Source: Aquimarina muelleri DSM 19832 | GTDB taxonomy: Bacteria; Bacteroidota; Bacteroidia; Flavobacteriales; Flavobacteriaceae | Assembly: GCF_000430665.1 (NCBI RefSeq) | Contig: NZ_AUML01000024.1 | Location: 1 to 64,000, forward strand | Reading direction: 5' to 3' | DNA length: 64,000 nt | In this document: piece by piece, positions 9,024 through 52,868 of the stretch | Numbering within the stretch: position 1 is the stretch's first letter | How the letters are laid out: every line of letters begins with the position of its first letter | Notes under the pieces: model-generated | Databases searched by the model: none | The model's input: the letters and a program-made list of their open reading frames with translations, nothing else | What the model was told of the DNA's origin: nothing | Translations under genes and position numbers: made by a program

Positions 9024-9031
9024 CAAAACTA
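9024..9031 (-). promoter_or_regulatory. Possible Bacteroidota -7 element for lon
   Basis: The minus strand reads TAGTTTTG, an exact TAnnTTTG match, 33 bases upstream of the lon start codon, which is a normal distance. No clear -33 TTG is present. Confidence 0.45.
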
Positions 9032-11390: not shown

Positions 11391-11423
11391 AAACGTACAA
11401 ATTCAATAAATCAATCTATAAAA

Positions 11424-20141: not shown

Positions 20142-21593
<1,452 letters not shown>

Positions 21594-27216: not shown

Positions 27217-27822
27217 TTAATTATTTCCTTTCCAAGCGGACATTGTTATATTCTGATCTACATTTACCCCTTCTTTTCGGATTACTTTCTTTATGGTTAA
27301 TAATAATATTTTAATGTCTAAGGAGAAACTTACATTTTTCACATACCACACATCGTACTCAAATTTCTGACTCCAGGATATTGTATTTCTTCCTTTTACT
27401 TGCGCCCACCCTGTTATACCTGGTCTAACATTATGTCGTTTTTGCTGTTCTTTATTATACAATGGCAAGTACTCCACTAAAAGCGGTCTGGGTCCTATCA
27501 GACTCATATCTCCTTTTAGGACATTAATTAGTTGTAAAATTTCATCCAAGGAATATTTTCTAATAAAAGCACCAGCTTTGGTTATACGAGAAACATTATG
27601 CACATTATCTTTATCTTCTGATTTTAAATCAGACATGGTTTTAAATTTAATGATTTTAAAAAGTTCCCCATTTTTTCCTGGTCTTGATTGAAAAAAGAAA
27701 GGCTTTCCTTTATTTACTACAAGCAATAGGACAACTAATACTATTATAATTGGTCCTAGTAGTAATATACCAAAAAATGAAAGTATAAAATCTAAGATTC
27801 GTTTTATAAATGGATTATACAT
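27217..27822 (-). CDS. PglC-like initiating phosphoglycosyl transferase
   Basis: A 201-residue monotopic sugar-phosphate transferase that starts a glycan by moving HexNAc-type sugar-1-phosphate onto undecaprenyl phosphate. The N-terminal re-entrant hydrophobic helix (about 10-35), basic FFFQSRPGKNGELFKIIKFKTM, the catalytic Asp-Glu in SLDEILQLINVL and GDMSLIGPRPL fit PglC, which has the same minimal length. It lies 76 bases after the start of the PglD fusion gene, consistent with a bacillosamine-type first sugar. A second, closely similar enzyme is encoded at 30834-31439. Confidence 0.93.
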   Translation of the reverse strand: MYNPFIKRILDFILSFFGILLLGPIIIVLVVLLLVVNKGKPFFFQSRPGKNGELFKIIKFKTMSDLKSEDKDNVHNVSRITKAGAFIRKYSLDEILQLINVLKGDMSLIGPRPLLVEYLPLYNKEQQKRHNVRPGITGWAQVKGRNTISWSQKFEYDVWYVKNVSFSLDIKILLLTIKKVIRKEGVNVDQNITMSAWKGNN

Positions 27823-27958: not shown

Positions 27959-28198
27959 CTACAATTCAGCTTCTATAGTTCTAACCAAATCCCCCACATT
28001 ATTCATGTTCATTAAATCCATTAGTTTAAATTTTATTCCAAAAGATTTCTCTATTTCTGTAATAATCATCATATGTGTAATAGACTCCCATCCATCAACA
28101 TCTTCAGCTGTGGTTTCTTCTTTAAGTTGAAAATTATCATGTTCTAATACCGTAATAAAGGCTTCTTTTATTTTTGAAAAAATTTCTTCTTTATTCAT
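27959..28198 (-). CDS. Acyl/peptidyl carrier protein (DltC-like), module 1
   Basis: A 79-residue carrier protein. S39 in DVDGWESITHMMII is the expected phosphopantetheine attachment site; the usual DSL is here ESI. The four-helix pattern and acidic composition fit. Its gene starts 6 bases after the adenylation enzyme gene (28205-29707), which should load it. It is similar over its whole length to the second carrier protein at 47607-47846, sharing DVDGW, HMMIIT and the IxFKLxDLxxxxNxG stretch. Confidence 0.9.
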   Translation of the reverse strand: MNKEEIFSKIKEAFITVLEHDNFQLKEETTAEDVDGWESITHMMIITEIEKSFGIKFKLMDLMNMNNVGDLVRTIEAEL

Positions 28199-29716: not shown

Positions 29717-30814
29717 TTAATAAAAATGACCATCTCTATTTAACATTTCTAATTTTTCAGAACCTAATTTAGTCTCTTTATGCGCTAATCCTTTTTTGGT
29801 TACTCTGTGCGTAAAAATAGTCTTGTATCTTTTTGTAATAGTATCCGATAGCTTTGTATCGTCTGTAAAAATAAATTTAGCTTTCTTTTGAATTAAGTTT
29901 TCTATTAACGCATCTACGCATAAATTATAATTAGACTCTTCTCCTACCAAAAAGTATTTAATGTTTAATTCGTTATAATTAATTACATAAGATAAAAAGC
30001 CAATAATTGTATCTTGTTTCATAATCTTAAGATTATGGATATAAATATTATTGCTAGTTCCTGTCTGTAAGGATTTATAAGGATGTTTTTTTGATATGGG
30101 AGTTTGAGTGTATTGCATATTATATAATTGCCAATTCACATAATCTTTTGTTTTATATATTAAATCATTTTTACATAAAGGTTCTATAAAATCCCAAGTT
30201 ATATCTTCTAATTGATTTATATATTCATATGATAATTCTCTCGTTTTATTTTTAGCTTTAGGTTTGTTTAATAATCTTATAATTGCAGCAGTAGTAGCGT
30301 CGATTTTATCTAAAATAAATTTAAACTTTTTTAAGAATTTAAATTTCCCAATAAGCATAGACGCATCCAGACTAAAAAAAATGGTATGTCTTAGTCTTGA
30401 TACAATTACTGTAAAAGGCTGTTTTTCATAAAAACTATTTACATTTTCTGCATACGATTTAATTAAAATTTGTTTTCCTGTAAGGTTTACTGCTTCATTA
30501 TATATATAAGTTCCTAAAACGGTATTTTTAAATTGTTTATCTACCCACCAAGATATCATCCAATACACTTTGGTTGGCTCCAAATCCTTATTATTAAGCA
30601 GGTCTGGAAACATAAAAATAAAAGAAATCATTTTTTCTCCTTCATAACCGATAACTCCGCAATAATCTTTTTCTTCTATCCTAGAGTTGGATAATAACCA
30701 TAATGCTTTACTTTTAGGTAATGGGGTAAGGTTACCATTCCAATAAGAATTTTTGGCAACCGCATCTCTAAGCATTTTTTTGGTTATACCAATTACCTGT
30801 AAATCTTTACTCAT
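29717..30814 (-). CDS. GNAT-like acyltransferase of unknown substrate
   Basis: A 365-residue protein without signal peptide. The N-terminal part resembles a GNAT fold: KDYCGVIGYEGEKMISFIFMFPDL, then VYWMISWWVDKQFKNTVLGTYIYNEAV, then SYAENVNSFYEKQPF. The C-terminal half (about 210-350) looks like a second, weaker GNAT unit (TIIGFLSYVINYNELNIKYF). Similar proteins occur in capsule clusters as sugar acyltransferases, but no close family was recognised. It lies 9 bases upstream of the adenylation enzyme gene, so it may use the carrier-bound aminoacyl group. That link is inference. Confidence 0.55.
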   Translation of the reverse strand: MSKDLQVIGITKKMLRDAVAKNSYWNGNLTPLPKSKALWLLSNSRIEEKDYCGVIGYEGEKMISFIFMFPDLLNNKDLEPTKVYWMISWWVDKQFKNTVLGTYIYNEAVNLTGKQILIKSYAENVNSFYEKQPFTVIVSRLRHTIFFSLDASMLIGKFKFLKKFKFILDKIDATTAAIIRLLNKPKAKNKTRELSYEYINQLEDITWDFIEPLCKNDLIYKTKDYVNWQLYNMQYTQTPISKKHPYKSLQTGTSNNIYIHNLKIMKQDTIIGFLSYVINYNELNIKYFLVGEESNYNLCVDALIENLIQKKAKFIFTDDTKLSDTITKRYKTIFTHRVTKKGLAHKETKLGSEKLEMLNRDGHFY

Positions 30815-30833: not shown

Positions 30834-31439
30834 CTAGTTGCTTCCATTAAAATATTCCGATGTTTGTTCTTCAGATAGGTTTACATCTTTTTTCTGAATT
30901 ACTTTTTTAAACGTTAGACCAAGTATTTTTACATCTAGTAAAAAACTCATATTTTCTACATACCAGACATCGTATTCAAACTTTTTTTTCCATGTTATAG
31001 AATTTCTTCCATTAACTTGTGCCCATCCGGTTATTCCTGGTTTAGTGTCATGGCGTTTTTTCTGGATTTCATTATATATTGGCAAATATTCAATAATTAA
31101 TGGTCTAGGACCAATTAAAGACATTTCTCCTTTAATAACATTTATTAATTGTGGTATTTCATCTAAAGAAGTTTTTCTTATAAATGTTCCTACTCTGGTT
31201 ATCCTATCCTTATCTGGTAATAAATTTCCTTCTGAATCCTTTTTATCATTCATCGTTTTAAACTTAAGAATGCTAAAAATCCTTTCTTTTTTACCAGGTC
31301 GTTTTTGCACAAAAAATGGTTTACCATTATTTGTTATTACTAAAAAAACAATTAAAAATAAAAATAAAGGCGAAATGAATAGTAATAGAATTAACGATAT
31401 GCAAAAATCTAAGACTCTTTTTATAAAAATTTTGTACAC
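30834..31439 (-). CDS. Second PglC-like initiating phosphoglycosyl transferase
   Basis: A 201-residue monotopic enzyme of the same kind and length as the one at 27217-27822, with the same landmarks: hydrophobic hairpin (about 10-35), KPFFVQKRPGKKERIFSILK, the Asp-Glu in SLDEIPQLINVI, GEMSLIGPRPLIIEYLPIY and GITGWAQVNGRNSI. The two are similar almost throughout and may be a duplication, or starters for two glycans. A TAnnTTTG site lies about 50 bases upstream. A PglA-like glycosyltransferase gene lies 328 bases further upstream on the same strand. Confidence 0.93.
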   Translation of the reverse strand: MYKIFIKRVLDFCISLILLLFISPLFLFLIVFLVITNNGKPFFVQKRPGKKERIFSILKFKTMNDKKDSEGNLLPDKDRITRVGTFIRKTSLDEIPQLINVIKGEMSLIGPRPLIIEYLPIYNEIQKKRHDTKPGITGWAQVNGRNSITWKKKFEYDVWYVENMSFLLDVKILGLTFKKVIQKKDVNLSEEQTSEYFNGSN

Positions 31440-35299: not shown

Positions 35300-36232
35300 T
35301 CAATTTTCTCTAATTTGATCTATTAAATTTTTCATAAATAATCGTGCCCCATCATCGTTTAAGTGAGAAGGATCATGAAATAACTCAGGTTTATTGATAA
35401 ACTTTGATGAATTAAAGTAATCGTAAAAAAGAATATTCTCCTTTTCTGCAATACTTTTTATGGTAGTAAAAGATGTATTCCTAGAATTGTCTACTCTATT
35501 AAAAGTTGGTGAGGTAACAAATATCAACTTAATATCATTTTTCTTGGCAGTGTCGATAAACGTTTGTAGCGCAATCACAAAATTTTGATCTATATCCTCA
35601 GTACTGTTAATTTTACTCTCTTTTTCATTTATTACCATCTTAGATGGGTTTATTTTACCAAATAATGGTCTATACCCTTTATAGTCTATCTGGGGAGCTA
35701 TATAATATCGAATAGCATGCATGATAGTAGAATTGGTTTGATAAGCATTAAAAAACATTTTTATATCTATTAACTCAGATTCTAAACCTAAAATAGGTTT
35801 CAGTATATCCTTATGGTTTGTATAATAAGGATGTAAATCACTCAATCTATCATAGGCTTCTTTCGAATAATAAAGAAAATCTTGATCAATATTTAAAATT
35901 ACTAATTCTGGCTTTGTTCGATTTACAATCATGCTTTGTAATGCGGTGTGATATAGTAATTGCTGCCCTTCTGCCCCTGCATTATAGCATGTTTTTCCTA
36001 ATTCTTTTTCAAAAACTTCTGGTATATAATGTCTATGTGCATGAGAGCTTCCAAATATCAATATTTTTGCCTCCGTATTTTTTATTGCGCGTGTAGATCT
36101 AGCATATTTACCTGTTTGTTGGCTAAAAAATATCTGCTTTGAAACCATGCCTAATGTAAAATCTACAATGCAGAAGATTATCATAAATTTTACTAGCTTG
36201 ATTATCGATATCTTATATTCTTTTATAATCAT
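35300..36232 (-). CDS. SGNH-like acyl-transfer/esterase protein, MBOAT partner
   Basis: A 310-residue protein with one N-terminal membrane segment (about 12-30) and a periplasmic SGNH-type domain: ILIFGSSHAHRHYIPE with likely nucleophile S63, then YNAGAEGQQL and a late FHDPSHLNDDGARLF with the Asp-His pair. Asp in the usual GDS is serine here. It ends the run of 21 closely spaced minus-strand genes and begins 3 bases after its MBOAT partner's stop, so the pair is surely co-expressed. Probably transfers the acyl group to the exported glycan. Confidence 0.82.
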   Translation of the reverse strand: MIIKEYKISIIKLVKFMIIFCIVDFTLGMVSKQIFFSQQTGKYARSTRAIKNTEAKILIFGSSHAHRHYIPEVFEKELGKTCYNAGAEGQQLLYHTALQSMIVNRTKPELVILNIDQDFLYYSKEAYDRLSDLHPYYTNHKDILKPILGLESELIDIKMFFNAYQTNSTIMHAIRYYIAPQIDYKGYRPLFGKINPSKMVINEKESKINSTEDIDQNFVIALQTFIDTAKKNDIKLIFVTSPTFNRVDNSRNTSFTTIKSIAEKENILFYDYFNSSKFINKPELFHDPSHLNDDGARLFMKNLIDQIREN

Positions 36233-36235
36233 GCT

Positions 36236-37648
36236 TTAAAACTGAAAATAAATAAATTGACTTTTACCAAACACTCCAAAATATAGAATCATATAGATTA
36301 AAACCGCGTACCCTATTAATCTAATAAGTTCAGACTTATTATTTGATATAGAAAAAATGGTGTTAAAATATTCTTTTTTCATTTCTACTACTAGTAAAAT
36401 CGCTATTGCCAAAGTGGCATATAACGAGGCTGTAATATCATCTCCACTACCAATATACAAGTGTCCTGGAGAAGTAAAAACTTTTTTAATAATATAAAAT
36501 GCATTCTCTATTGAGTTTGCTCTAAAAAATATCCATGAAAAATTAATTAAAACAAAGGTAAATAATACATTAATTAATCCTTTTCTCTTTTTCTTAAATA
36601 CTAAAATTTCAAGAGTCAAATACAATCCGTTTAAAGCTCCCCATACTACAAAGGTCCAATTAGATCCATGCCATAATCCACTTATTAAAAAAGTAATGAA
36701 AAGATTAAATAACCAACGAAACTTCCCTACTCGATTACCTCCTAATGGAATATATAAATAATCTCGAAACCATGTGGATAATGAAATATGCCATCTGGTC
36801 CAAAATTCGCTTACCGACGCTGAAAAATAAGGGCGCTTAAAATTTGTCATCAATTCAAAACCAAATAGCTTTGAAACACCTATTGCTATTAAAGAGTAGC
36901 CTGCAAAATCTCCATATATTTGAAAAGCAAATAAAATTGTTGCAGCAATAAAAGTTAATCCATCGTGATTATCTACATTATTATATACAGCATTCACATA
37001 AATTGCCGCTCTATCCGCTACTACCAACTTGAGAAAGAATCCCCAAATCATTAATTTGATACCATAAGAAAACGTTTTATATGTAAATGTTCTCTTATGC
37101 AAAAACTGAGGCACCAAATTGGTCGCTCTTTCTATAGGCCCTGCAACTAATTGTGGAAAAAAAGAAACAAATGCTGCGAATGCAATAAAATCTCTCGTTG
37201 GTTTAAGTTTACCCCTATAAATGTCTATAGAATACGATAACGTCTGAAAAGTATAAAATGAGATTCCTACAGGTAAGATAACCTGCAACGTCCGTGTACT
37301 CTGAAATTCATATCCAACTGAAGAAAATAAATCAACCCAAGATTCTATAAAAAAGTTATAATATTTAAAAAAACCTAGTAAACCAAGATTAAACACAATA
37401 CTTACCCAAAGCCATCTTTTTTTAAAGAGCAAATTCCTGGTTTCATAAACTCGAAATCCAACGATATAATCAACAATGGTACTTAACGCAATTAAAGATA
37501 AAAACCTCCAATCCCACCAACCATAAAAGATATAACTTGCAATTACTATGAGTACATTTTGAAATTTTAAATTTTTATATACTACTAACCAATAGAGTAA
37601 AAAAACTATCAGAAGAAATATAAAAAAATCTATAGAATTAAAAAACAT
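36236..37648 (-). CDS. MBOAT-family O-acyltransferase
   Basis: A 470-residue polytopic membrane enzyme with LPVGISFYTFQTLSYSID, FFPQLVAGPIERATN, YGDFAGYSLIAIGVSKL, EFWTRWHISLSTWFRDYLYIPLGG in two blocks, and catalytic histidine in SGLWHGSNWTFVVWG. The C-terminus is QFIYFQF. It lies between two SGNH-like genes (18 bases after one, 3 bases before the other), so two MBOAT/SGNH pairs are tandem here. The acyl group, commonly acetyl for this branch, cannot be read from sequence. Confidence 0.95.
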   Translation of the reverse strand: MFFNSIDFFIFLLIVFLLYWLVVYKNLKFQNVLIVIASYIFYGWWDWRFLSLIALSTIVDYIVGFRVYETRNLLFKKRWLWVSIVFNLGLLGFFKYYNFFIESWVDLFSSVGYEFQSTRTLQVILPVGISFYTFQTLSYSIDIYRGKLKPTRDFIAFAAFVSFFPQLVAGPIERATNLVPQFLHKRTFTYKTFSYGIKLMIWGFFLKLVVADRAAIYVNAVYNNVDNHDGLTFIAATILFAFQIYGDFAGYSLIAIGVSKLFGFELMTNFKRPYFSASVSEFWTRWHISLSTWFRDYLYIPLGGNRVGKFRWLFNLFITFLISGLWHGSNWTFVVWGALNGLYLTLEILVFKKKRKGLINVLFTFVLINFSWIFFRANSIENAFYIIKKVFTSPGHLYIGSGDDITASLYATLAIAILLVVEMKKEYFNTIFSISNNKSELIRLIGYAVLIYMILYFGVFGKSQFIYFQF

Positions 37649-37666: not shown

Positions 37667-38605
37667 TTAAAGGGGGGTAACTAAAAGTTCTTGTAATGTA
37701 TCTGAAAATACCTCTGCACCTTCATTAGATAAATGAATTTCGTCTTTCCAATATTTCATTAAATTATTTTCAATAAATAGGTCAGAATAATCATAGTATT
37801 CTATATCTATTTCTTTAAGTATTTTAGTGAATTTTGAATTATCTTCTTTACATGAATCTCTATAAAGAGGAGCTGTAATTAGTATCAGCTTCTTTTTATT
37901 TTCTTCACAAAAAACCTTCATTTCTTTAAGGTAATATCTATAAAGAGAGTTCATAGTATAGCTATCCAAACAATCTACTTCTGGATCCGAATACTTTAAA
38001 TAATTTTGGAATATCTGTTTTTGGGTATCATTTACATAAATAGGATCATATCCATAATACGTTCTATAATCATATTTAGGTATAAAAACATTTTTAAGTA
38101 TTCCTAAAACTTTTCCATTATACCCTTTACTCCAATAGAATTTTTGTATATAATCATCTAAATTAACATTATCAATTTCTCTTTTGATTATCTTATCTCT
38201 ATGATACCTTACATTTAATCTATTGACATCATCTCCAGAATAACTATCTTTAAATGCATTTTTAGTATCTACATTAACTATTATTATTTGTTCTTTATTT
38301 TTTGGTAACATTTTAATTAAAGTAGCACTATAAGCAATCGATGTACCATCGACTCCCATATTAAAACCAGATGAAGATATTTTTTGTGTATTTATATGTC
38401 GATTTGTTCTTGAATTACCAAAAGCAACTACATCTATAGTATCTTTAGTTATAATATAATGATTCAACTTACCTATTGCTTGACCAGATAAAACCTTATC
38501 ACTAAGAAAGTTGAATGTAAAATATATAACTTTATCTAGAATAAATGTTGCTAAAAGTATACATACGATAAGCTTTAATGTCGTTTTAAGATTAGTTTTA
38601 TCCAT
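37667..38605 (-). CDS. SGNH-like acyl-transfer/esterase protein, MBOAT partner
   Basis: A 312-residue protein with an N-terminal membrane anchor (about 8-33) and an SGNH-type domain. The nucleophile block is VVAFGNSRTNRHI with S65; an NMGVDG block follows, and a late WKDEIHLSNEGAEVF supplies the Asp-His pair. The order of motifs matches the other SGNH proteins in the locus, although sequence similarity is low outside them. It starts 8 bases after the upstream MBOAT gene. Confidence 0.82.
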   Translation of the reverse strand: MDKTNLKTTLKLIVCILLATFILDKVIYFTFNFLSDKVLSGQAIGKLNHYIITKDTIDVVAFGNSRTNRHINTQKISSSGFNMGVDGTSIAYSATLIKMLPKNKEQIIIVNVDTKNAFKDSYSGDDVNRLNVRYHRDKIIKREIDNVNLDDYIQKFYWSKGYNGKVLGILKNVFIPKYDYRTYYGYDPIYVNDTQKQIFQNYLKYSDPEVDCLDSYTMNSLYRYYLKEMKVFCEENKKKLILITAPLYRDSCKEDNSKFTKILKEIDIEYYDYSDLFIENNLMKYWKDEIHLSNEGAEVFSDTLQELLVTPL

Positions 38606-38613: not shown

Positions 38614-40026
38614 TTAAAATTGGAAGTATATAAAATTGTTTGAAGTGGAATAAAACAAGATCAATAATACTATAATTAATGTACTAAGTGAAACAAATTT
38701 AAACTCTCCAAATGTACTTCCTAAGTCTTCTAAATTGTATTTATTCTTGTAAAGGAAAAAATCAAAAAAAATTCCTATCATTAACATTACAATCGATATT
38801 GTAACATTATTTGCATCACCAATAAATGGCATTAAAAAATCAAAATGGATTATCTTTTTAATAATTAAAATAGAAGTATTTAAATCTTTTGCCCTAAAAA
38901 ATACCCAAGATAGCAGGACAATCAAAAATGTTGTTATATATCCTATAAAACCAAATGTTGAAGTCTTTTTATAGGAAAATATAAATTTTTCACAACTTAA
39001 TACAACTCCATGAATTGCTCCCCAAACAACAAAATTCCATGAACTCCCATGCCATAGTCCTCCTAATAACATTGTAATCATTAAGTTTCTATAGGTAATT
39101 ATAATACCTTTTCTGTTCCCTCCTAAGGAAATATACAAATAATCTCTAAGCCAAAAAGATAAAGACATATGCCATCGCCTCCAAAACTCTGTTATGCTTT
39201 TAGAAAAATATGGTAGATTAAAGTTTTGATTAAATTTAAACCCTAATAATTTAGCACTACCGATAGCTATATCTGAATATCCTGCAAAATCGTAATATAT
39301 CTGAAAAGCATAAAATATCGTAGCAATTATTAAAGAGCTTGAATTGTGTATTTCTGAATTATTATAGATAGTATCTACATACGCTCCTAGGTTATCAGCA
39401 ATTACAATTTTTCTAAAAAGGCCTATTAGTATTTGAAAAGCCCCTTCATTAAACCATTTCTGTTTAAATACCCTCTTTACTTCCATTTGAGGTAGTAGAT
39501 TAGAAGCTCTTTCTATCGGACCAGCAACTAACTGAGGAAAAAAACTAATATATGTAAAAAAGGATATTATATCCTTAGTTGGTTTAAACTCTTTACGATA
39601 TATATCAATTGTATAACTAAGAGTTTGAAAGGTATAAAAACTAATTCCTACAGGAAGAATTATGTGTAAAGTTAAATCATCAACTTGCCATCCAAAACCT
39701 AACATTAGATCATAAAATGAAGATGCAAAAAAATTATAATACTTAAATACTCCCAAAAGCCCTAAGTTAGAGAACAAGCTTAAAATAAGCCACCTCTTTC
39801 TTACTTTTTTGTTTTCTGAAGAGTGTATTTTTAATCCTGTAAAGTAATCTACAAAAGAACTAAACAGTATCAAAGATAAAAACCTCCAATCCCACCAACC
39901 ATAAAATATATAACTAGCTAATAATAAAAGTATATTTTGATACTTTAGCCTTTTATTAAATACAAACCAATACAACAAAAAGACTATTGGAAAAAAAAGT
40001 AAAAATTCGATTGAGTTAAAAAGCAT
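38614..40026 (-). CDS. MBOAT-family O-acyltransferase
   Basis: A 470-residue polytopic enzyme with LPVGISFYTFQTLSYTID, FFPQLVAGPIERASN, YYDFAGYSDIAIGSAKL, EFWRRWHMSLSFWLRDYLY and catalytic histidine in GGLWHGSSWNFVVWG; C-terminus NNFIYFQF. Start and end of the protein are strongly alike in all four MBOATs here (MLFNSIEFLLFFP at the start). It follows the CapK-like gene by 9 bases and precedes its SGNH partner by 8. Confidence 0.95.
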   Translation of the reverse strand: MLFNSIEFLLFFPIVFLLYWFVFNKRLKYQNILLLLASYIFYGWWDWRFLSLILFSSFVDYFTGLKIHSSENKKVRKRWLILSLFSNLGLLGVFKYYNFFASSFYDLMLGFGWQVDDLTLHIILPVGISFYTFQTLSYTIDIYRKEFKPTKDIISFFTYISFFPQLVAGPIERASNLLPQMEVKRVFKQKWFNEGAFQILIGLFRKIVIADNLGAYVDTIYNNSEIHNSSSLIIATIFYAFQIYYDFAGYSDIAIGSAKLLGFKFNQNFNLPYFSKSITEFWRRWHMSLSFWLRDYLYISLGGNRKGIIITYRNLMITMLLGGLWHGSSWNFVVWGAIHGVVLSCEKFIFSYKKTSTFGFIGYITTFLIVLLSWVFFRAKDLNTSILIIKKIIHFDFLMPFIGDANNVTISIVMLMIGIFFDFFLYKNKYNLEDLGSTFGEFKFVSLSTLIIVLLILFYSTSNNFIYFQF

Positions 40027-40035: not shown

Positions 40036-41436
40036 TTATTTTTCGATTTTATCTTTAATATTATTCTTAATCAATCTAAACTTACCGCTTTTTTCAACTG
40101 GTATTTCTTCAACATATTGTATCTCAATTTCTATAGTACCTCCTACTCTATCCCTTAAATTTTTCAAGAAAGTTTCTTCGTCTTTTAGCTTAAACACATT
40201 TTCATCTTTTTCTACAAATATTAACAGATGTTCTAATGAGTCTTGTTGAATCTGAAATTTTATAATTCCCTTTACCCCTTTAAGTGCGTTTGAAATATTT
40301 CCGAGGTTTATTTTACCAATTTCTTCAGAATAAATATAATCGGATATTCGCCCTAAAACCTCCTTAACAAGAGGGTTATTATTACCACAAGAACACGTCC
40401 CTTGATTATCTAACTCTATTTGATCTCCTATATCATACCGAATAAGTGGTGTGCCATGAGTTGTAAAAGAAGTTACCACAAGCCTTCCTGCTGAGCTAGG
40501 TTGATTATTACCGTCTAAAACTTCAAATACTCCACTTTGTAGTTCTAAATGTAATTTTTTGTTTTCACATTCTATTATAAACGGTGCTCCTTCAGATGAA
40601 GCATACTGATTATATAAGTCAGTTTTAAAATAACTTTCCAAAACCTTACGAATATCTTCCGTTATTGTTTCTGCAGTAGGAAATATTGCTTTTATTATAT
40701 TTGCAGGAAAGTCTATATTATTAGCTATACCATATTTAGCTATTTCGTACATTGTAGAAGGAAAACCAACCATGTAAGGAGGTTTAAATGTTATTAGATC
40801 TTCTAAGTAATATTTTAAATACTTGCCGTGAATATGAAAAGTTGAATAGTATCTAACTTTATAGAAATAATCTGTTTTCCAAAATCTTTTCTTTTTAATA
40901 TCTGTAGAAGTTAGTAAGTTTTTACCACTAAACCAAGCAGTTCTTTCTCCTAATCGATATCCAAAATTATTTCTAAAATTATCTAACATGGCAAATCGTT
41001 CCTGAACATCATCATAAGTATAAACAACCTCTAAAGATTTACCAGTTGTTCCTCCTGTTTTAGAAATTACTCCTTTGTTTTTATCAATAGTATAAATAGA
41101 AGAAAGATTATTTCTTAAAACTTCTTTAGTAATTATCGGAAGCTTTTTTATATTGGTCAAATCATCTGAATCTTCTATATTTTCAAATATTTTATTATAA
41201 TATTCAGAATTATTTTTAGTATAAATAATAAACTCTCTATATTTTTGTTTTTGAAGTTCTTTTAATTCCTCTGTAGATAGTGTTTTATTGTTTTTATAGT
41301 ACTCTAAAAACTGCTTATACTTTTTAGAATACCTTTTTTTATATGCTAAAATATTAAATACAGATACTATACAATTTTGAATAAAATGAGGGGATTTTTC
41401 GTAAATTTTTTCTTGTAAACTACTCATATTATTCAA
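40036..41436 (-). CDS. CapK/PaaK-like adenylate-forming enzyme
   Basis: A 466-residue protein of the phenylacetate-CoA ligase/CapK branch. SKTGGTTGKSLEVVYT is the ATP-binding loop, YNQYASSEGAPFIIEC the second core motif and TPLIRYDIGDQIEL the hinge region; CSCGNNNPLVKEVLGR is the Cys-containing segment usual for CapK. Such proteins are common in capsule loci and are thought to activate a carboxylic acid or sugar acid as an adenylate, but the substrate is not established. It overlaps the upstream glycosyltransferase gene by 8 bases. Here it is a third adenylate-forming enzyme beside two amino-acid activators. Confidence 0.88.
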   Translation of the reverse strand: MNNMSSLQEKIYEKSPHFIQNCIVSVFNILAYKKRYSKKYKQFLEYYKNNKTLSTEELKELQKQKYREFIIYTKNNSEYYNKIFENIEDSDDLTNIKKLPIITKEVLRNNLSSIYTIDKNKGVISKTGGTTGKSLEVVYTYDDVQERFAMLDNFRNNFGYRLGERTAWFSGKNLLTSTDIKKKRFWKTDYFYKVRYYSTFHIHGKYLKYYLEDLITFKPPYMVGFPSTMYEIAKYGIANNIDFPANIIKAIFPTAETITEDIRKVLESYFKTDLYNQYASSEGAPFIIECENKKLHLELQSGVFEVLDGNNQPSSAGRLVVTSFTTHGTPLIRYDIGDQIELDNQGTCSCGNNNPLVKEVLGRISDYIYSEEIGKINLGNISNALKGVKGIIKFQIQQDSLEHLLIFVEKDENVFKLKDEETFLKNLRDRVGGTIEIEIQYVEEIPVEKSGKFRLIKNNIKDKIEK

Positions 41437-44610: not shown

Positions 44611-45171
44611 TTATTTTTTATCTAGTATTCTTGCTGGATTACCTACTGCAATACAATTATCAGGTATACTTTTTGTTACTACACTACCCGCACCAATAAC
44701 ACAATTATCTCCTATAGTAATACCTCCTATAACAATTGCTCCGGTATAAATGGATACGTTATTACCTATTGTTGGTCTTTTACCTTTCTCTTCTCCTACA
44801 GTAACTAAATGATTAACATAAAAATTATCTCCTATAGTATCTGCATTTAAAATTGTGCAATATGGATGCCCCGTAAGAACCCCTCCTCCTAGTTTAGTAC
44901 TTATATCTATCGTAAAATTAGCTTGCTTTTTACAATATAAGTTAAGAATATGAGAAAAAACACTTCTTGTTCTAAAGTAAAATAAAGTTCGGAAATCGGG
45001 TGAATTTGCCAAAAACTCTAACAATAGGATGTTATTTCCTTTATTCATTCCTTTTGCTACTGCCCAACGCTCTATATCCATATCGATTTTGTCCTTGTTT
45101 TTGCTCAGTTTATACAAAATTAAATGTGGAATAAGGAATATTTTATAAATTGTTAGGAGTAAAAATTTCAT
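44611..45171 (-). CDS. Serine-acetyltransferase-like hexapeptide O-acetyltransferase
   Basis: A 186-residue protein with an N-terminal helical part and C-terminal left-handed beta-helix of hexapeptide repeats (about 95-180): IDISTKLGGGVLTGHPYCTIL, then ITIGDNCVIGAGSVVTKSIPDN and a closing AVGNPARIL. The layout resembles CysE-like acetyltransferases used in capsule synthesis (WcaB/colanic type), which acetylate sugars in the cytoplasm with acetyl-CoA. The first 20 residues are hydrophobic and could anchor it at the membrane. It lies between an SGNH-like gene and the polymerase gene. Confidence 0.88.
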   Translation of the reverse strand: MKFLLLTIYKIFLIPHLILYKLSKNKDKIDMDIERWAVAKGMNKGNNILLLEFLANSPDFRTLFYFRTRSVFSHILNLYCKKQANFTIDISTKLGGGVLTGHPYCTILNADTIGDNFYVNHLVTVGEEKGKRPTIGNNVSIYTGAIVIGGITIGDNCVIGAGSVVTKSIPDNCIAVGNPARILDKK

Positions 45172-45219: not shown

Positions 45220-46146
45220 TTATAAATTCTTTGCTGTTTTTTTTAGTATCGAATCACAAAGCGTATTTGTAAAATCAAAACCACCATACTTATCTAAATG
45301 ATGTCCGTCGTATGTTTTAAAACTAGTATGCGTACTAGAAACATTAAAATTAAAATAGTTAACATTGTTAGATACAGCAATCCTATTTATGTCTTTATCA
45401 AAATCTTTATAAAATGAGTTTTCTACTGCAACAAAATCCAGATCAATAGGCATACGTACTAAATATACTTTACCATGTTTTTGTAAATTTTTAATTAAAA
45501 CATCTAAACTTTCTAGTCTTTCAGAAGAAACCTCGTAACTTTTGATCATTTTATCAAACATTTTTCTTTGCCTCTTTTTCCACTCATCAAATATTTTTGG
45601 ATTTGTTGGCAGATTGTTCTCTTCTAACCAACCATTTTTGTGCATGGTAGAGGTTCTTCTAAATGCCGATTTAAAATGAAAATATTTTAAGTTTCTAAAA
45701 AGATATTCATAATTAGGGTTTGTGTTTACAAACTTCATGTTATGTGGCGGTCTATCTGCTTCTCTATACTCTCCTATAGAATTATCCTTATCTGATCCAA
45801 ACATCCAGGGAGTAAGAGATATAATAAAAATTCCGTTTTTAGAGTTTTTATCTAATTTTGAATCAATACTTTTATTGTATAAAGGCCCAATCGGAGCCTC
45901 GGCTATTGTAAAGCTATAATTAAATATGGGTAATTCATAGTTTAACTCTTTTAACCTTTCATTTATTACTTCTGGCTGCATCCCTTGCATACTTCTAGAA
46001 TCTCCTATAATCATAGAGGTTGCTCGTGGAGTAGTGAATTTTTGATAGAAATAATCAATATTACCGCCATATTTTATTAATACAAAAGTTGTTATTGTTA
46101 AACATATCGCAAAAAACAGACTCAATTTTAAAATTAATAATCTCAT
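45220..46146 (-). CDS. SGNH-like protein, MBOAT partner (DltD-like position)
   Basis: A 308-residue protein with one N-terminal membrane span (about 5-25) and a periplasmic domain. MIIGDSRSMQGMQPEV has the nucleophile serine S50; NYSFTIAEAP lies in the place of block II, and YDGHHLDKYGG near residue 283 gives the Asp-His pair. It begins 3 bases after the MBOAT stop and closes the contiguous order adenylation enzyme, carrier protein, MBOAT, SGNH protein, matching the roles of dltA, dltC, dltB and dltD. It is not obviously a true DltD by sequence, so the parallel rests on fold and order. Confidence 0.8.
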   Translation of the reverse strand: MRLLILKLSLFFAICLTITTFVLIKYGGNIDYFYQKFTTPRATSMIIGDSRSMQGMQPEVINERLKELNYELPIFNYSFTIAEAPIGPLYNKSIDSKLDKNSKNGIFIISLTPWMFGSDKDNSIGEYREADRPPHNMKFVNTNPNYEYLFRNLKYFHFKSAFRRTSTMHKNGWLEENNLPTNPKIFDEWKKRQRKMFDKMIKSYEVSSERLESLDVLIKNLQKHGKVYLVRMPIDLDFVAVENSFYKDFDKDINRIAVSNNVNYFNFNVSSTHTSFKTYDGHHLDKYGGFDFTNTLCDSILKKTAKNL

Positions 46147-46149
46147 AGC

Positions 46150-47595
46150 CTAAAATTGGAAGTATATAAATGTTTCAGAGCTTTTTCCGAAAAATAATAT
46201 CAATGAAAAAATAAATATATAAAAACCCCATCTAAGGTAAATATTATAATTATGTATCTCAAAATCATGTTTCTTTTCTCGATTACACCACTCTATTAAA
46301 ATAAAGAAACCTATCAATATAATAGTAATTATAGTTGTAGAGGCTATAATTATAGAAGGAAAATTTATAATACTTAAAGAAAAAACCCTTTTAAGATAAT
46401 CTAAACCCATAGCTACATTATCTACTCTAAAAAAGACATCGGTAAGCATAATTAAAAGAAATAGAGATATCATTTTAAATACTTCTTTAATAGAAGGTAA
46501 GAGTTTTCCTTTTGCTACAATTTCTGAAGAATTCATTTTACCAGAAAAGACTAAGGGTATAAAATATATTCCGTGTAAAAGCCCATATACAACAAATGTC
46601 CAATTAGCTCCATGCCAAAAACCTACCAAAACAAAAGTGGTTATAATAGAAAAAATCAATCCTTTTTTTTGATGCCTTCTTAACGTAAATGACAATGGGG
46701 TAAAAACATAATCCATCATCCATGTAGTTAATGAAATATGCCATTTTCGCCAAAAATCACTGATATTTGTTGAAAAAAACGGTGTCGAAAAATTACGCAT
46801 TAACTGTATTCCAAATAGTTTGGATACTCCTATTGCCATATTTGAATATCCTGAAAAATCTGCATATAACTGTATTGCATAAAAGAAAGCTCCTACTAAT
46901 AAAGTACTTCCTGGCTCATTTTCATAATTATTAAAAATAGGATTAACAATAATCGCACAATTTTCTGCGATAACTATTTTTGCGAATAATCCCCATAAAA
47001 TTTGTCGTAATCCATCTACCGAAACACTATAAGAGAGGTTCCTTTTTTCTTGAATTTGAGGTATAAAGCTGGCTGCCCTTTCTATTGGTCCAGAAAGTAT
47101 TTTTGGAAAAAATGTTATAAAAATAGAAAACTCTAAAAGATTTTCACTAGGATCTATTTCTTCATTATAAACATCTGTAAGGTATCCCAGAGTCTGAAAT
47201 GTAAAGAAACTTATTCCTAATGGTAGTAATATTTCTAATGTACTGTAACTTGATTCTGCTCCAAAAACATTTAATATTTCGAAAAAACCTTCGTAGAAAA
47301 AATTAAAATATTTAAAATATAGTAATAATCCTATATTAAATATCAATCCTATATAGAGGAAAATATTTTTTTTACGATCTTCTGGAGTTCTATGTATTTT
47401 TAATCCTAAATAAAAATTAATTAGTGTACTTGCAACTAATAATATTAAAAATCGCCAATCTGCCCACGCATAAAAAAATAGACTAACTAGTAGTAAAAAA
47501 AAGTTTTGGTAAACACTAGATTTACTAAAAATTAGCCAGTATAATAAAAATACTGGGATGATAAAAACGACAAAATCTAATGAATTGAATACCAC
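46150..47595 (-). CDS. MBOAT-family O-acyltransferase (DltB-like position)
   Basis: A 481-residue polytopic enzyme. Landmarks: LPLGISFFTFQTLGY, FFPKILSGPIERAASFIP (slightly divergent from the LVAGPIERA of its relatives), YADFSGYSNMAIGVSKL, DFWRKWHISLTTWMMDYVFTPL and catalytic histidine in VGFWHGANWTFVVYG; C-terminus TFIYFQF. It lies 11 bases after the carrier protein gene, so it is the most likely acceptor of the carrier-bound aminoacyl group, as DltB is for D-Ala-DltC. It is the most divergent of the four MBOATs here. Confidence 0.94.
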   Translation of the reverse strand: MVFNSLDFVVFIIPVFLLYWLIFSKSSVYQNFFLLLVSLFFYAWADWRFLILLVASTLINFYLGLKIHRTPEDRKKNIFLYIGLIFNIGLLLYFKYFNFFYEGFFEILNVFGAESSYSTLEILLPLGISFFTFQTLGYLTDVYNEEIDPSENLLEFSIFITFFPKILSGPIERAASFIPQIQEKRNLSYSVSVDGLRQILWGLFAKIVIAENCAIIVNPIFNNYENEPGSTLLVGAFFYAIQLYADFSGYSNMAIGVSKLFGIQLMRNFSTPFFSTNISDFWRKWHISLTTWMMDYVFTPLSFTLRRHQKKGLIFSIITTFVLVGFWHGANWTFVVYGLLHGIYFIPLVFSGKMNSSEIVAKGKLLPSIKEVFKMISLFLLIMLTDVFFRVDNVAMGLDYLKRVFSLSIINFPSIIIASTTIITIILIGFFILIEWCNREKKHDFEIHNYNIYLRWGFYIFIFSLILFFGKSSETFIYFQF

Positions 47596-47606
47596 GTCTT
47601 AATAAA

Positions 47607-47846
47607 TTAAATTTTAGACTGAATTACAGAAACAAGAGATCCCATATTTTTTAATTTATTCAAATCTCTAAGTTTAAAACGAATATTCAATTCTTCTTCA
47701 ATCTTAGTAATTATCATCATGTGTGATAAAGAATCCCATCCATCAACATCCTTGGCTGTTAATTCGTCGTGCATTTCAAAATTATTATGTCCTAATATGG
47801 ATACTAATGCGTTACTAATCTTTTCTTTTATAACATCTATTTCCAT
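47607..47846 (-). CDS. Acyl/peptidyl carrier protein (DltC-like), module 2
   Basis: A 79-residue carrier protein with phosphopantetheine serine S39 in DVDGWDSLSHMMII. Like its counterpart at 27959-28198 it is acidic and four-helical. It lies 24 bases after the adenylation enzyme gene and 11 bases before the MBOAT gene. It should carry the activated amino acid to the membrane enzyme. Confidence 0.92.
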   Translation of the reverse strand: MEIDVIKEKISNALVSILGHNNFEMHDELTAKDVDGWDSLSHMMIITKIEEELNIRFKLRDLNKLKNMGSLVSVIQSKI

Positions 47847-47870
47847 TATAATATGTAATTAATTATAGTA

Positions 47871-49355
47871 TTAACTAAATAGTTCTTTTAATTTTTTTCT
47901 ATCTATTTTCCCATTGGTATTAAGAGGGAAATTTTCTGCAAATTTGATTTGAGTGGGAATCATATACTGTGGAAGCTTAGTTTTTAAATCATCTAACAGT
48001 TCTTTGGTTTCAAATATAGGGGATTCTACTACTAATCCAATTTCTGTATTATGAATACTATTGGTAAAAGCAATTGCAACCACATTTATTTTATTGAGGG
48101 CGGTTTTAGCATGAAATTCAATCTCAGATAACTCTACTCTAAATCCTTGGACTTTTGCTTGAAAATCAACTCTTCCTAAATACAAGATATCTCCTTCTTT
48201 ATCTACTGTACATAAATCTCCTGTCCTATAAAATCTTATGTTTTTTCCATTATATTCTTTATAAAAAAAGGTTTCTTTATTTTTCTCTTCATTTTTCCAA
48301 TATCCTGGAGTAAGTTGTTCTCCGCTTAGGCATAACTCACCACTTTGTCCATGTATTACCTCATTGTTTTCTTCATCTACAATTATAGTAAGTGTGTTTT
48401 GCATATCCTTTCCTATGGTTAAAACACCATTATGTGTTTTATTATGCTCTCCTCTTTTGTAGGTATAATCTGTGCAAAAAATTGTACACTCTGTTGGTCC
48501 ATATACATTTGCTATAGTAGCATTAGGTACACAAGCACTCCACTCTTCTGTAACGTCTAGCGGTAATGCTTCTCCACAAAAAAGACTGTATTTCATTGCA
48601 GGGCAATCAATTTCATCAAAATATGGTCGTAAATAATGAAGGATGGATGGAACCATTAATGCAAAAGTTAAATTATAATCTTCCATCAGCTCAAATATAT
48701 AACTATACTTGATTTCATCTTTCGGAATGGTATATACACATGCTCCTTTAAGTATAGGTGCTAAATAGGATACTACTGATAAATCAAAAGTTAGTTCAAA
48801 CATTTGTAAGCACCTATCTGTATTATCTATTGTATAATCCAGTTTCCAAAAGGCGTCTATAAAGCTTGATAAATTACCAAAAGTAATGGGTACTCCTTTT
48901 GGAGTTCCTGTTGTTCCTGAAGTAAAAAATATGTATCCAAGATCATCTTCGGATATAGGATTAGGATTTAAATTAATTTCTGAAATTTTACATTGTTTTG
49001 TTAAAATAGTATTGTATTCTGAAAAAATCATATCTACAGAAGAATCCAAAATAGTACTAATATCTGCTTGTTTAATTACCATTGCATTTCTACTGGCAGG
49101 AAAATCAGGATGTATTGGCACATAGGCTTTTCCTTCCATCCATAATGCTATAATAGATGCATAGGTATGAATATCATCATTAGTTATTAGCCCTACATTG
49201 ATTTCACTACTTTTTACAGAAGTTTGGATTACTAATCTTATATTGGATATAATTTGTGCAAAATCTTTATAAGTATAATATGTGTTACTAATGCAAAAGG
49301 CATTACCATCATAATTATCCTGAATAGATTTTTGTATATTATAAATTAAGTCCAT
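47871..49355 (-). CDS. Amino-acid adenylation enzyme (DltA-like), module 2
   Basis: A 494-residue enzyme with complete core motifs: IFFTSGTTGTPKG (A3), TFDLSVV with D191 at the alpha-amino-binding position, VYGPTECTIF (A5), YRTGDLC (A7), VDFQAKVQGFRVELSEIE (A8) and NGKIDRKKL with K483 (A10). The stretch FCGEALP (C260) matches the FCGE of DltA, whose cysteine is linked to D-alanine choice; module 1 has glycine there. It heads a contiguous set with a carrier protein, MBOAT and SGNH protein. D-alanine is the best substrate guess; other small amino acids are possible. Confidence 0.9.
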   Translation of the reverse strand: MDLIYNIQKSIQDNYDGNAFCISNTYYTYKDFAQIISNIRLVIQTSVKSSEINVGLITNDDIHTYASIIALWMEGKAYVPIHPDFPASRNAMVIKQADISTILDSSVDMIFSEYNTILTKQCKISEINLNPNPISEDDLGYIFFTSGTTGTPKGVPITFGNLSSFIDAFWKLDYTIDNTDRCLQMFELTFDLSVVSYLAPILKGACVYTIPKDEIKYSYIFELMEDYNLTFALMVPSILHYLRPYFDEIDCPAMKYSLFCGEALPLDVTEEWSACVPNATIANVYGPTECTIFCTDYTYKRGEHNKTHNGVLTIGKDMQNTLTIIVDEENNEVIHGQSGELCLSGEQLTPGYWKNEEKNKETFFYKEYNGKNIRFYRTGDLCTVDKEGDILYLGRVDFQAKVQGFRVELSEIEFHAKTALNKINVVAIAFTNSIHNTEIGLVVESPIFETKELLDDLKTKLPQYMIPTQIKFAENFPLNTNGKIDRKKLKELFS

Positions 49356-49393: not shown

Positions 49394-50596
49394 TTATTTT
49401 AAATATTCGTTTGCTACTTTTTCTAAATCAAATTTTCTTAACAGAGCATCTTTATTGATCTCTAGATTTTGTTTATATTCTTTAGATTTCAGTGCTAACT
49501 CTATAGCTTCTGCCAAAACATATTCTTCTTCTATAAAATCATTGGTTTCAGGTATACCTAAACGATTTTTATATAAATTAGGGGTAATAATTCCTGCTTC
49601 TACCGTAACCATTTTATCTTCAATTACATGATTTTTTAGGCTCATTAATTCAACAACTCCATACGTACAGCAGGATGAAACTATTGGTGTTCCTAAACAC
49701 ATTGCCTCGACTATAACATTAGGTGTTCCTTCATAATGTGAAGCTAGTGCCAGTATCTTTGCTTTAGCTAAATATTTATAAGGATTTTTTCTTCTTCCTA
49801 AAAAATGGATTTTTCCTTTAATTTTTAATTCTTCAATTAAGTCTTCTAAATGATTAAGTACTCTTCCGTCTCCATCTCCTATAAAAATAAGTTTAGCTTC
49901 TGGAATATTTTTAAGAACTAAAGAAAAGGCTTTAATCAAATGCCATGGAGATTTTTGTGTAGAAAGTCTTCCTATAAATAAAATAGAATTATCCTCTAAT
50001 AAATCCATCTCTTCTGATAAAGTAATATCCTCTAAAGAACGTTTTTGTATTTCTTCCACATCATGTGGGTTGTATATTACTTCTAATTTATTAACAAATC
50101 TAAAATTGCATTTCTCTATAAGATCTTCTTTAATTGCATTACTAATACAAACAACTTTATCTAATTTTTTATAGGTGTATTTATACCCAAATCTAGTCAT
50201 TTTACTAAGTAAAGAATCATTACTCAGTTCCACACTTTTTAATGCATGAATGCTTGCTACTTTGTAATCTTTTGTAAATGTTAGCGAACTATATACATTA
50301 GGCATTGCTCCAAAAGAAATAGAATGCGTGATTTTATGTTTTTTAATTACTTTTCTAAGCTTATAAGGAATCGAAAAATAGAACTTTAATCTTTCAGTTT
50401 TTGACATATCACTAAAATCATGATCTGAAAAAAACAATTCGTCTTCCCCAAAATTTATGATATCATTTTCGAGTTTTATAAATTTCAAAGCTTTTATAAA
50501 ATACCCTTCTTTTTTATAATAATTATAAAAAGAAAAAGCTAACCTTTCCATACCTCCAACTCCACCATATGGTATAATTAGTAAAATATTTTTCAT
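49394..50596 (-). CDS. GT4-family glycosyltransferase
   Basis: A 400-residue GT-B enzyme. IIPYGGVGGMERLAFSFYNYY is the N-terminal glycine-rich motif; SILFIGRLSTQKSPWHLIKA and HYEGTPNVIVEAMCLGTP form the donor site with the EX7E pair. It lies 38 bases upstream of the module 2 adenylation gene and 100 bases downstream of another GT4 gene. The sugar is unknown; relatives often add GalNAc or glucose. Confidence 0.92.
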   Translation of the reverse strand: MKNILLIIPYGGVGGMERLAFSFYNYYKKEGYFIKALKFIKLENDIINFGEDELFFSDHDFSDMSKTERLKFYFSIPYKLRKVIKKHKITHSISFGAMPNVYSSLTFTKDYKVASIHALKSVELSNDSLLSKMTRFGYKYTYKKLDKVVCISNAIKEDLIEKCNFRFVNKLEVIYNPHDVEEIQKRSLEDITLSEEMDLLEDNSILFIGRLSTQKSPWHLIKAFSLVLKNIPEAKLIFIGDGDGRVLNHLEDLIEELKIKGKIHFLGRRKNPYKYLAKAKILALASHYEGTPNVIVEAMCLGTPIVSSCCTYGVVELMSLKNHVIEDKMVTVEAGIITPNLYKNRLGIPETNDFIEEEYVLAEAIELALKSKEYKQNLEINKDALLRKFDLEKVANEYLK

Positions 50597-51803: not shown

Positions 51804-52868
51804 TTATCTACTTCCTGTTAAAAGCGAATATACTTTTGGTGTTGTTTTTTGAAGCAATCTGGCGCAGGCAACACATGCCAATGTTGCCAAGATAGAGCTT
51901 ATAAAAAATAATAATAAAAGAAGAATATCATTTTCTCCTATATATTTTACATAAATCTTAGTAAAATAGGTTAGCGCTACACCATGCGCTGCGTATATAA
52001 AAAAACGATATCCATAAAGAGGTTTATTCGTAAATTCATATTTTCTGTTTATAAAATCGTAGATAGTCCAGACTGTAAAAAAACCTATAAACATGGTGAG
52101 TCTTTTACAGATTATAGAGATAATATGAGTTTCTTCGTATGCGTCACGAACATAAAAGTTTAAAAAGATACCAATTCCCCATACTACCACAGATAATAAA
52201 TATGTAGATGTTTTAAAATTAGATACAATATTAAGCTTTGTTATAGAAGTATATGCTCCACATGTAAATGAAAACAAACCAAGATATTGTAATAAATGTA
52301 CATTGTTTACATAAAACAAACTTGGTTGTTGTAAAAATAATAAAGCACATAGGAAAATTAAAAAATAAAACTTCAAGTATCTGATTGCCAAGTAAATTAA
52401 AGGTGTTAACCAAACATAAAATATTAACTCTCTAATAAACCAAAATGTATAATTTATAGGATCTACAAAAGCTAACCATGCCTGTCTCCATAAAGGCATA
52501 TCATGCAATGGTTCTTCAAAAAAATGAGACAGCATTGGGATAAACTGAATAGCATAAACAATCAAAAACCATAATCCACACCACAAAAAATATGGTATTA
52601 CAAGTGTTTTAAATCTGTTTTTAATTTTTCTTTTAAAGGTAAATACCGATAAATCATGGTTCTTAAAAAACAGAAAACCCGAAATAAAAAAGAACATCGG
52701 TATAAAGATATTAGATAACTCTAATGCAAACAAATACTCTATATAATATACTACTTCTCTGTTTGTTTCAATATTTAGATTTGTCAAATTATATGCGTGG
52801 CAAACTACCACCATAAAAATGGAATAAAAAGAAAGAATACGTATTTTATTACTAACACTTTTGTCCAT
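51804..52868 (-). CDS. Acyltransferase family 3 (OatA/WecH-type) membrane protein
   Basis: A 354-residue protein with about ten membrane spans. The N-terminal RILSFYSIFMVVVCHAYN holds the family histidine, and FIPMFFFISGFLFFKN follows as usual. Such proteins O-acetylate capsule or O-antigen sugars with acetyl-CoA. It abuts the next glycosyltransferase gene and follows the pyruvyltransferase gene by 19 bases. The first-third charged loop (FKRKIKNRFKTLVIPYFLW) fits the R/K-rich motif of the family. Confidence 0.9.
   Translation of the reverse strand: MDKSVSNKIRILSFYSIFMVVVCHAYNLTNLNIETNREVVYYIEYLFALELSNIFIPMFFFISGFLFFKNHDLSVFTFKRKIKNRFKTLVIPYFLWCGLWFLIVYAIQFIPMLSHFFEEPLHDMPLWRQAWLAFVDPINYTFWFIRELIFYVWLTPLIYLAIRYLKFYFLIFLCALLFLQQPSLFYVNNVHLLQYLGLFSFTCGAYTSITKLNIVSNFKTSTYLLSVVVWGIGIFLNFYVRDAYEETHIISIICKRLTMFIGFFTVWTIYDFINRKYEFTNKPLYGYRFFIYAAHGVALTYFTKIYVKYIGENDILLLLLFFISSILATLACVACARLLQKTTPKVYSLLTGSR

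Follow-up and report, generated by a model that had tools for sequence, protein, structure and literature searches.

D-Alanylation of teichoic acids in Gram-positive bacteria relies on the Dlt system (DltX-A-B-C-D), and Dlt-like loci occur in Bordetella and Photorhabdus. A membrane O-acyltransferase (MBOAT) with an SGNH partner is also found in the O-acetylation systems PatA/PatB and AlgI/AlgX; passages of a 2025 paper describe PatA/AlgI-type systems as carrier-free and acyl-CoA-using, and report a tyrosine shuttle for PatA and DltX, which is located on DltX in the Dlt system and on the MBOAT in PatA, where it is acetylated (PMC12148441). In DltB, the MBOAT of Dlt, helix HC contacts the carrier DltC via Met302, Val305, Ile306, and Met309, as stated in parts of a second paper (PMC11035591). 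AlmEFG of Vibrio cholerae puts glycine on lipid A, an envelope glycolipid, according to passages of two further papers (PMC3783018, PMC12930378). Here, we describe a four-gene cassette (45220–49355, minus strand) in a 64,000-nucleotide stretch of the Aquimarina muelleri DSM 19832 genome (contig NZ_AUML01000024.1, positions 1–64,000; hereafter, the window). The cassette encodes an adenylation enzyme (A1), a carrier protein (CP1), an MBOAT (MBOAT1), and an SGNH protein (SGNH1), which probably form a trans-membrane machine for the transfer of aminoacyl esters to a Wzx/Wzy-type polysaccharide. This reading builds on the genes, their conserved order, the motifs and folds of the products, and an association between a linked carrier and the HC loop of the MBOAT. 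The new element is that carrier-linked MBOATs lack a PLGG(N/S)R loop, and of all the results, this carrier-loop rule is the most useful. In a literature search whose reach excluded subscription papers, no title or abstract start among the matches listed described the combination of adenylation enzyme, carrier, and MBOAT.

Conservation of the cassette

An earlier, sequence-only reading of this DNA had taken the four genes for a complete Dlt-like set. The genes and the short gaps between them (24, 11, and 3 bases) are confirmed by the gene coordinates, and the assignment of the four products to the roles of DltA, DltC, DltB, and DltD is supported. The match to Dlt holds for these roles and not beyond them: the equivalog cut-offs for DltA and DltB were not reached, no plausible DltX frame was found in the window, and the MBOAT itself carries the shuttle motif. 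A1 (47871–49355, minus strand, as are the other three) was identified as a stand-alone, amino-acid-type adenylation enzyme with a DltA-like role from Pfam, NCBIfam, and its pocket; the 79-residue CP1 (47607–47846) from Pfam PP-binding and a Protein Data Bank (PDB) match; MBOAT1 (46150–47595) from Pfam MBOAT (1e-21) and the DltB structures 8jem and 6bug; and SGNH1 (45220–46146), which consists of an N-terminal helix (residues 2–30) and an SGNH domain, from motif conservation and fold.

Conservation was assessed in 68 loci obtained by a scan of genome contigs (A-loci). In all 22 loci in which the A gene shares 72% identity or more with A1 (18 from Aquimarina, three from Flavivirga, and one from a Bacteroidia metagenome-assembled genome), the order A1-CP1-MBOAT1-SGNH1 was kept, including the placement of the carrier just upstream of the MBOAT, at a distance of 11 bases in the window. 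Gaps within these cassettes did not exceed 44 bases, tandem A genes excepted, and a second, tandem A gene accompanied the cassette in three of the 22 loci. In more distant A-loci, the order was often interrupted by extra genes or the MBOAT was missing. In L021, L023, and L024 (near 9001–11985), two tandem A genes precede a single carrier; the second copy is 58–59% identical to A1 and has the pocket DVMLLCVMLK, and two loaders may serve one carrier there.

CP1 exceeded the Pfam PP-binding cut-off (22.2 vs. 20.8 bits), and Ser39 (47730–47732) is its predicted phosphopantetheine site. Its best PDB match was 2lml, a putative acyl carrier protein (2.3e-11). The four NCBIfam models matched by CP1 are all acyl carrier protein models, and DltC was not among them. 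A six-frame search of the strain's own genome (G000) gave 67 carrier-domain matches, mostly in frames of the size of non-ribosomal peptide or polyketide synthases; at an E-value of 0.001, the second carrier of the window (CP2, see below) was listed and CP1 was not among the rows.

The predicted catalytic residues of SGNH1 are Ser50 (45997–45999) and Asp280/His283 (45298–45309). Ser50 and His283 were invariant across 26 aligned rows, and Asp280 was present in at least 90%. The protein has an SGNH fold, as in PatB (8tlb). No Pfam or NCBIfam model, DltD included, matched it at an E-value of 1e-3. DltD was not among the fold matches listed either, a listing that says nothing on DltD membership. 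In L019, L021, L023, L024, and L033, pairs of an SGNH1-like protein and an MBOAT of the GG type, i.e., with the PLGG(N/S)R loop, lie just upstream of the A1 cassette (near 5990–8400).

The donor loop of carrier-linked MBOATs

MBOAT1 matched the DltB structures with an E-value of ~7e-31, and its His286 and His328 align to His289 and His336 of DltB. The score with the DltB equivalog TIGR04091 was 178.2 bits (cut-off 375). Six MBOATs were scanned with the DltB model; the carrier-linked ones reached 178, 188, and 165 bits, those of the GG type 143, 157, and 146 bits. At its C-terminus, MBOAT1 carries the acyl-shuttle motif FIYFQF with Tyr478 (46153–46170, minus strand; read from the sequence), which is common to all four MBOATs of the window. 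With an MBOAT domain, two histidines, and a C-terminal FxYxxF, MBOAT1 has the features of polymer O-acyltransferases, and it combines a carrier partner with a fused shuttle motif. A window-wide search for a separate DltX (frames ending in F.Y..[FY]) gave no plausible frame: the only long ones were the four MBOATs, and the other three comprise 20, 7, and 12 codons, the 20-codon frame being antisense at 49577–49636.

Residues 295–311 of MBOAT1 (DYVFTPLSFTLRRHQKK; 46663–46713, minus strand) are the counterpart of helix HC in an alignment with DltB. The stretch aligned to HC reads DYVFTPLSFTLRR in MBOAT1, DYLYIPLGGNR in MBOAT2, DYLYISLGGNR in MBOAT3, and HYVYIPLGGSR in MBOAT4. The PLGG(N/S)R loop is missing in carrier-linked MBOATs at the place where DltC docks on DltB. 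This association was examined in four sets, namely the A-loci, two phylum samples, and plasmid loci, and the loop class was assigned by alignment and by eye. In the A-loci, a linked carrier was one on the same strand and −120 to 400 bases upstream. For the plasmid loci and the first phylum sample, the limit was 3 kb on the same strand (in L149, an AMP-ligase gene lies between), and in the second phylum sample, any carrier within ~5 kb on either side was counted, where all six cases fell within 50 bases. MBOATs were classed as carrier-free when a hidden Markov model built from 70 A-loci carriers detected none; BLAST with CP1/CP2 served this purpose for the A-loci. Divergent carriers may escape these searches.

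Of 77 MBOAT open reading frames in the A-loci, 65 passed the length window; the 12 dropped frames include the carrier-linked MBOAT of L041, the loop of which is cut by the contig end and unreadable. GG was missing in all 32 carrier-linked MBOATs, and the other 33 comprised 25 GG and 8 non-GG proteins. The first phylum sample consisted of 61 genomes including the strain's own, 24 of them with an MBOAT, and 31 of the 34 MBOATs from the other genomes were read (G041:C28, G011:C88, and G001:C12 were left out). All four carrier-linked MBOATs were non-GG, and 26 of the 27 others were GG by alignment (25 by eye). From the second phylum sample (178 genomes), 64 of 67 MBOATs of genomes outside the first sample were read, with the partial frames G173:C1, G179, and G157 left out; the six carrier-linked proteins were again non-GG, and 55 of 58 others were GG. 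Pooling of the two samples resulted in 10/10 non-GG for carrier-linked and 81/85 GG (80/85 by eye) for carrier-free MBOATs. L123 was GG by alignment (offset PLLRSGGRR) and non-GG by eye; L213 and L219, with an insertion before LGG, were counted as non-GG, and L203 and L205 as GG. The 18 plasmid loci, which were not random but hand-chosen for spread over several phyla from 40 listed of 136 records, comprised 17 GG-type cases without carrier and one non-GG case with a carrier and an AMP ligase (Metabacillus L149). In the combined alignment table, all 38 carrier-linked MBOATs were without GG, which was present in 71 of the 80 rows that lacked a linked carrier. Fisher tests gave 4.8e-4 for the first sample (by-eye table), 1.1e-6 for the second (two-sided), and 9.9e-11 for both pooled (3.0e-10 by eye), values that exaggerate the independence of the cases, as the carrier-linked ones belong to only three or four lineages. 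The loop association supports the placement of a putative carrier docking site at residues 295–311 of MBOAT1.

In a tree built from 76 MBOATs, six changes of the carrier label were required, at least five of them forced by well-supported branches, against a mean of 15.6 for shuffled labels. Carrier-linked proteins were found in the MBOAT1 clade, in the groups L039/L052/L057/L060/L084 and L135/L137/L140/L141, and in L149, the separate placement of which is weakly supported. As GG-type MBOATs lie between these groups, the loop loss that accompanies carrier use seems to be convergent. The loop change would then accompany several separate recruitments or losses of a carrier, and a change counted in the tree may also be a carrier loss.

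Loaders were read in L135, L137, L140, L141, and L149 only, and in none of the six second-sample loci with a linked carrier. In the first four, the gene before the carrier encodes an AMP ligase of 572–586 amino acids; that of L137, the only one scanned, resembles fatty-acyl-AMP ligases (FAALs; NF006624, 310.9 bits, cut-off 600). The ligase is preceded by a GDSL-type protein of 464–470 amino acids in L135, L137, and L140 (Pfam, 32.5 bits with a cut-off of 32.9 for L137, the only one checked). L149 has the order carrier, AMP ligase, MBOAT, and SGNH-like protein. Cassettes thus differ in their loader, and their shared carrier/MBOAT chassis appears to accept different acids.

Substrate of the adenylation enzyme

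A1 matched Pfam AMP-binding (1.4e-57), and its best NCBIfam model was AA-adenyl-dom (299.1 bits, below the cut-off). DltA is the closest stand-alone named family, with 291.9 bits for NF003417 and 279.7 bits for the equivalog TIGR01734 (cut-off 559.85). Two residues to which the sequence-only reading had drawn attention are present in the alignment to DltA: Asp191 (48783–48785, minus strand), which aligns to D196 of 3e7w and is predicted to bind the α-amino group, and Cys260 (48576–48578, minus strand), which aligns to C268. The α-amino aspartate and the A10 lysine were found in all 71 aligned homologues (selected at >40% identity and >450 amino acids) as well as in A1 and in A2, the second adenylation enzyme of the window; amino acids are therefore likely substrates. 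For A1, an α-amino acid is the likely one.

Pockets were read by alignment to DltA 3e7w only. On this basis, the pocket of A1 (DLVLLCVIFK) agrees at 4 of 10 positions with DltA (DLMTMCTVAK) and at 5 of 10 with LgrA-A2 (DIANLCIIYK), the domain of LgrA module 2, which activates glycine. D-Alanine, the substrate favored in the sequence-only reading, loses its special position here, and that A1 and CP1 are a true D-Ala system placing D-alanine esters on the polysaccharide is rather doubtful. Apart from the family scores, agreement with DltA at Cys260 and Leu192 speaks for such a system, but positions 239, 278, 299, 322, 330, and 331 are unlike DltA, Phe293 stands where DltA has Ala301, and the glycine domain LgrA-A2 is equally close. 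Cys260 was rejected as a D-Ala marker and is not diagnostic for DltA, because LgrA-A2 carries the same CGE. Phe293 suggests that the pocket of A1 may be at least as tight as one for alanine. Most likely, the substrate would be a small neutral α-amino acid, i.e., glycine or alanine, with no firm choice between them. Other relatives have the pockets DFVTSGYVYK (A2 class), DVQAITF[IV]YK (mostly Bacteroidales; presumably Pro-like), and DATKIGHVCK (Algibacter/Tenacibaculum; presumably Asp-like), which suggests diversification of the family with respect to its amino acid.

Proposed mechanism and alternative explanations

We infer a substrate, a direction of transfer, an acceptor sugar, and an ester function in the following scheme, the loading and transfer steps of which are modeled on the DltA/DltC, DltB, and PatA/PatB families. 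A1 would adenylate the small neutral α-amino acid and load it onto the phosphopantetheine at Ser39 of CP1, and the aminoacyl-CP1 would dock on MBOAT1 at its cytoplasmic HC element (295–311). With the assistance of His328, the aminoacyl group would then travel along the MBOAT1 tunnel to Tyr478 in FIYFQF of the same protein; from the Tyr478 shuttle, Ser50 of the membrane-anchored SGNH1 would take over the group and esterify a hydroxyl of the periplasmic polysaccharide. The expected Aquimarina product is an ester-linked amino acid, probably with a free amine that would counter the charge of the uronate and pyruvate groups; added positive charge on the polymer is plausible. Because of the alkali lability of amino-acid esters, an alkaline polysaccharide work-up could remove them unnoticed.

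Several points weigh against this scheme. The amino acid of A1 has more than one candidate. Non-GG MBOATs without a linked carrier exist (9/80 in the combined table, 3/58 in the second sample); eight of the nine sit in loci with an A enzyme and a carrier elsewhere, as do GG-type MBOATs. The Fisher values draw on the few lineages mentioned above. Furthermore, SGNH1-like proteins (52–62% identical) pair with GG-type MBOATs in L019, L021, L023, L024, and L033, so the SGNH protein is no marker of an aminoacyl system. The SGNH side looks exchangeable, with the donor side swapped and the acceptor side kept.

A less likely alternative is that the final substituent is N-blocked (an N-formyl- or N-acetyl-aminoacyl ester) and adds no positive charge. 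Formyltransferase genes lie between A and carrier in L039 and L084 (Pfam Formyl_trans_N) and L049 (by eye), and GNAT genes in L040 and L086 (Pfam) and others such as L060 (by eye); L039, L049, L040, L060, and L086 are distant relatives with the pocket class of A1. This arrangement suggests that N-formyl-aminoacyl groups are made in L039, L049, and L084, and the amine may be blocked in relatives with either intervening gene. FabH-like, FabG-like, and GNAT genes separate the A enzyme from the carrier in L053 (FabH-like, Pfam), L055, and L064 (both by eye), where chain extension of the aminoacyl unit is possible. From all these intervening genes, it is likely that the products of some relatives are N-blocked or extended. 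Additionally, a hexapeptide acyltransferase gene (44611–45171 in the window), which was considered as a candidate fifth component, lies a few genes or less from the cassette in 20 of the 22 conserved loci. However, this gene shows Hexapep repeats only and is absent near two of the 22 cassettes, and no formyltransferase or GNAT gene was found inside the cassette in the window or in the 22 conserved loci.

Compared with the aminoacyl-ester machine favored here, it is improbable that MBOAT1 and SGNH1 are an ordinary acetyl-CoA O-acetyltransferase pair, with A1/CP1 providing an aminoacyl thioester for another enzyme, e.g., a cytoplasmic N-acyltransferase. The second A/carrier pair of the window does adjoin a tandem-GNAT protein and not an MBOAT, but the gene order was kept in 22/22 loci and MBOAT1 shares the altered HC loop of all 38 carrier-linked MBOATs. 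Activation of a fatty or hydroxy acid by A1, for which the FAAL-like loader of other carrier/MBOAT cassettes (L137) could be cited, is very unlikely given the aspartate at the α-amino site of A1 and all 71 homologues and the best NCBIfam match to AA-adenyl-dom.

Locus context and companion system

The surroundings had been read as a capsule locus, and a polysaccharide locus of the Wzx/Wzy type is supported by the presence of flippase-like, EpsG, Wzc-like, UDP-sugar dehydrogenase, and pyruvyltransferase families. The latter two suggest uronate and pyruvate groups on the polymer.

The second system consists of GNAT2 (29717–30814), a tandem-GNAT-fold protein identified by its model, A2 (28205–29707; similarity and pocket alignment, DFVTSGYVYK), and CP2 (27959–28198; Ser39, read from the sequence), all on the minus strand. 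A2 is 52% identical to A1, and CP2 is 49% identical to CP1. The triad has no MBOAT and recurs in the order GNAT2-A2-CP2 wherever an A2-like gene was present (11 of 11 loci, from Aquimarina, Flavivirga, Algibacter, Tenacibaculum, and one Flavobacteriaceae). The Pfam scan of GNAT2 gave no match; its model (pLDDT 82.9) resembled VipF (2.2e-11), a Kribbella GNAT, and N-myristoyltransferase in Foldseek. The triad is located between two sugar transferase genes (27217–27822, Pfam; 30834–31439, similarity), with a PglD-like gene near. As a lead, these features suggest cytoplasmic N-aminoacylation of an amino sugar, with GNAT2 as the putative amino-acyl N-transferase.

The other MBOATs of the window are of the GG type and have no carrier: MBOAT2 (36236–37648, minus strand; partner SGNH2, 35300–36232), MBOAT3 (38614–40026, minus strand; SGNH3, 37667–38605), and MBOAT4 (20142–21593, plus strand; SGNH4, 21630–22601). 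As its locus combines a single carrier-type MBOAT with three of the GG type, the window can serve as a natural experiment on MBOAT donor choice. These three MBOAT/SGNH pairs, an AT3 acyltransferase (51804–52868), and the hexapeptide acyltransferase constitute a large acylation set. A 746-residue protein (24900–27140, minus strand) is a fusion of a PglD-like acetyltransferase and an FAD/NAD(P)-binding (NAD_binding_9) domain; two adjacent open reading frames match it in L043 and L045, where the parts may be separate genes. A PaaK/flexirubin-ligase-like adenylate-forming protein (40036–41436, minus strand; NCBIfam, below cut-offs) is encoded among glycosyltransferases, with no adjoining carrier.

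Comparison with known systems

The cassette shares with Dlt a stand-alone A enzyme, a small carrier, an MBOAT, and a membrane-anchored SGNH protein in one operon, as well as the α-amino aspartate and an MBOAT carrier-docking element without PLGG. It differs in the shuttle motif on the MBOAT in place of a DltX, in scores below the equivalog cut-offs, in the missing DltD Pfam match, in a pocket unlike that of DltA at 6 of 10 positions, and in its setting in a Gram-negative Wzx/Wzy-type locus. With PatA/PatB and AlgI/AlgX, it has in common an MBOAT with a C-terminal FxYxxF and a separate Ser-Asp-His SGNH partner, whereas here the MBOAT is preceded by A1 and CP1 and has another sequence in place of the PLGG(N/S)R loop. 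AlmEFG likewise is a Gram-negative system with an A enzyme and a carrier, but AlmG is of the lysophospholipid-acyltransferase (LPLAT) type and the target is lipid A, in contrast to an MBOAT with an SGNH partner. The FAAL-type cassettes (L135, L137, L140, and L141) have an AMP ligase, a carrier, and an altered-HC-loop MBOAT with FIYFQF in a row, and SGNH/GDSL-like genes near in at least L135, L137, and L140; they differ in the FAAL-like loader (L137 scanned) and the separate MBOAT lineage.

On balance, we lean toward a broad and partly convergent class, extending beyond Gram-positive Dlt, of carrier-fed MBOAT-SGNH machines by which amino acids or other unusual acids are placed as esters on exported polysaccharides. 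The donor type would be readable from the loop (loss of PLGG(N/S)R indicating a carrier) and the acid from the loader, while the acceptor side would reside in the SGNH protein, a possible partner of both MBOAT types. Should this hold, surface glycans other than teichoic acids and lipid A are decorated with amino-acid esters as well, the split between Dlt as carrier-using and other MBOAT-SGNH systems as acyl-CoA-using fails, and the loop rule would let sequence predict donor choice in many uncharacterized envelope loci. The Aquimarina cassette is real and conserved and encodes a Dlt-like machine, which its carrier sets apart from the MBOAT-SGNH systems described so far; judged from its sequence features, it appears to work like Dlt without being Dlt, i.e., as a carrier-fed MBOAT of the PatA/AlgI type.

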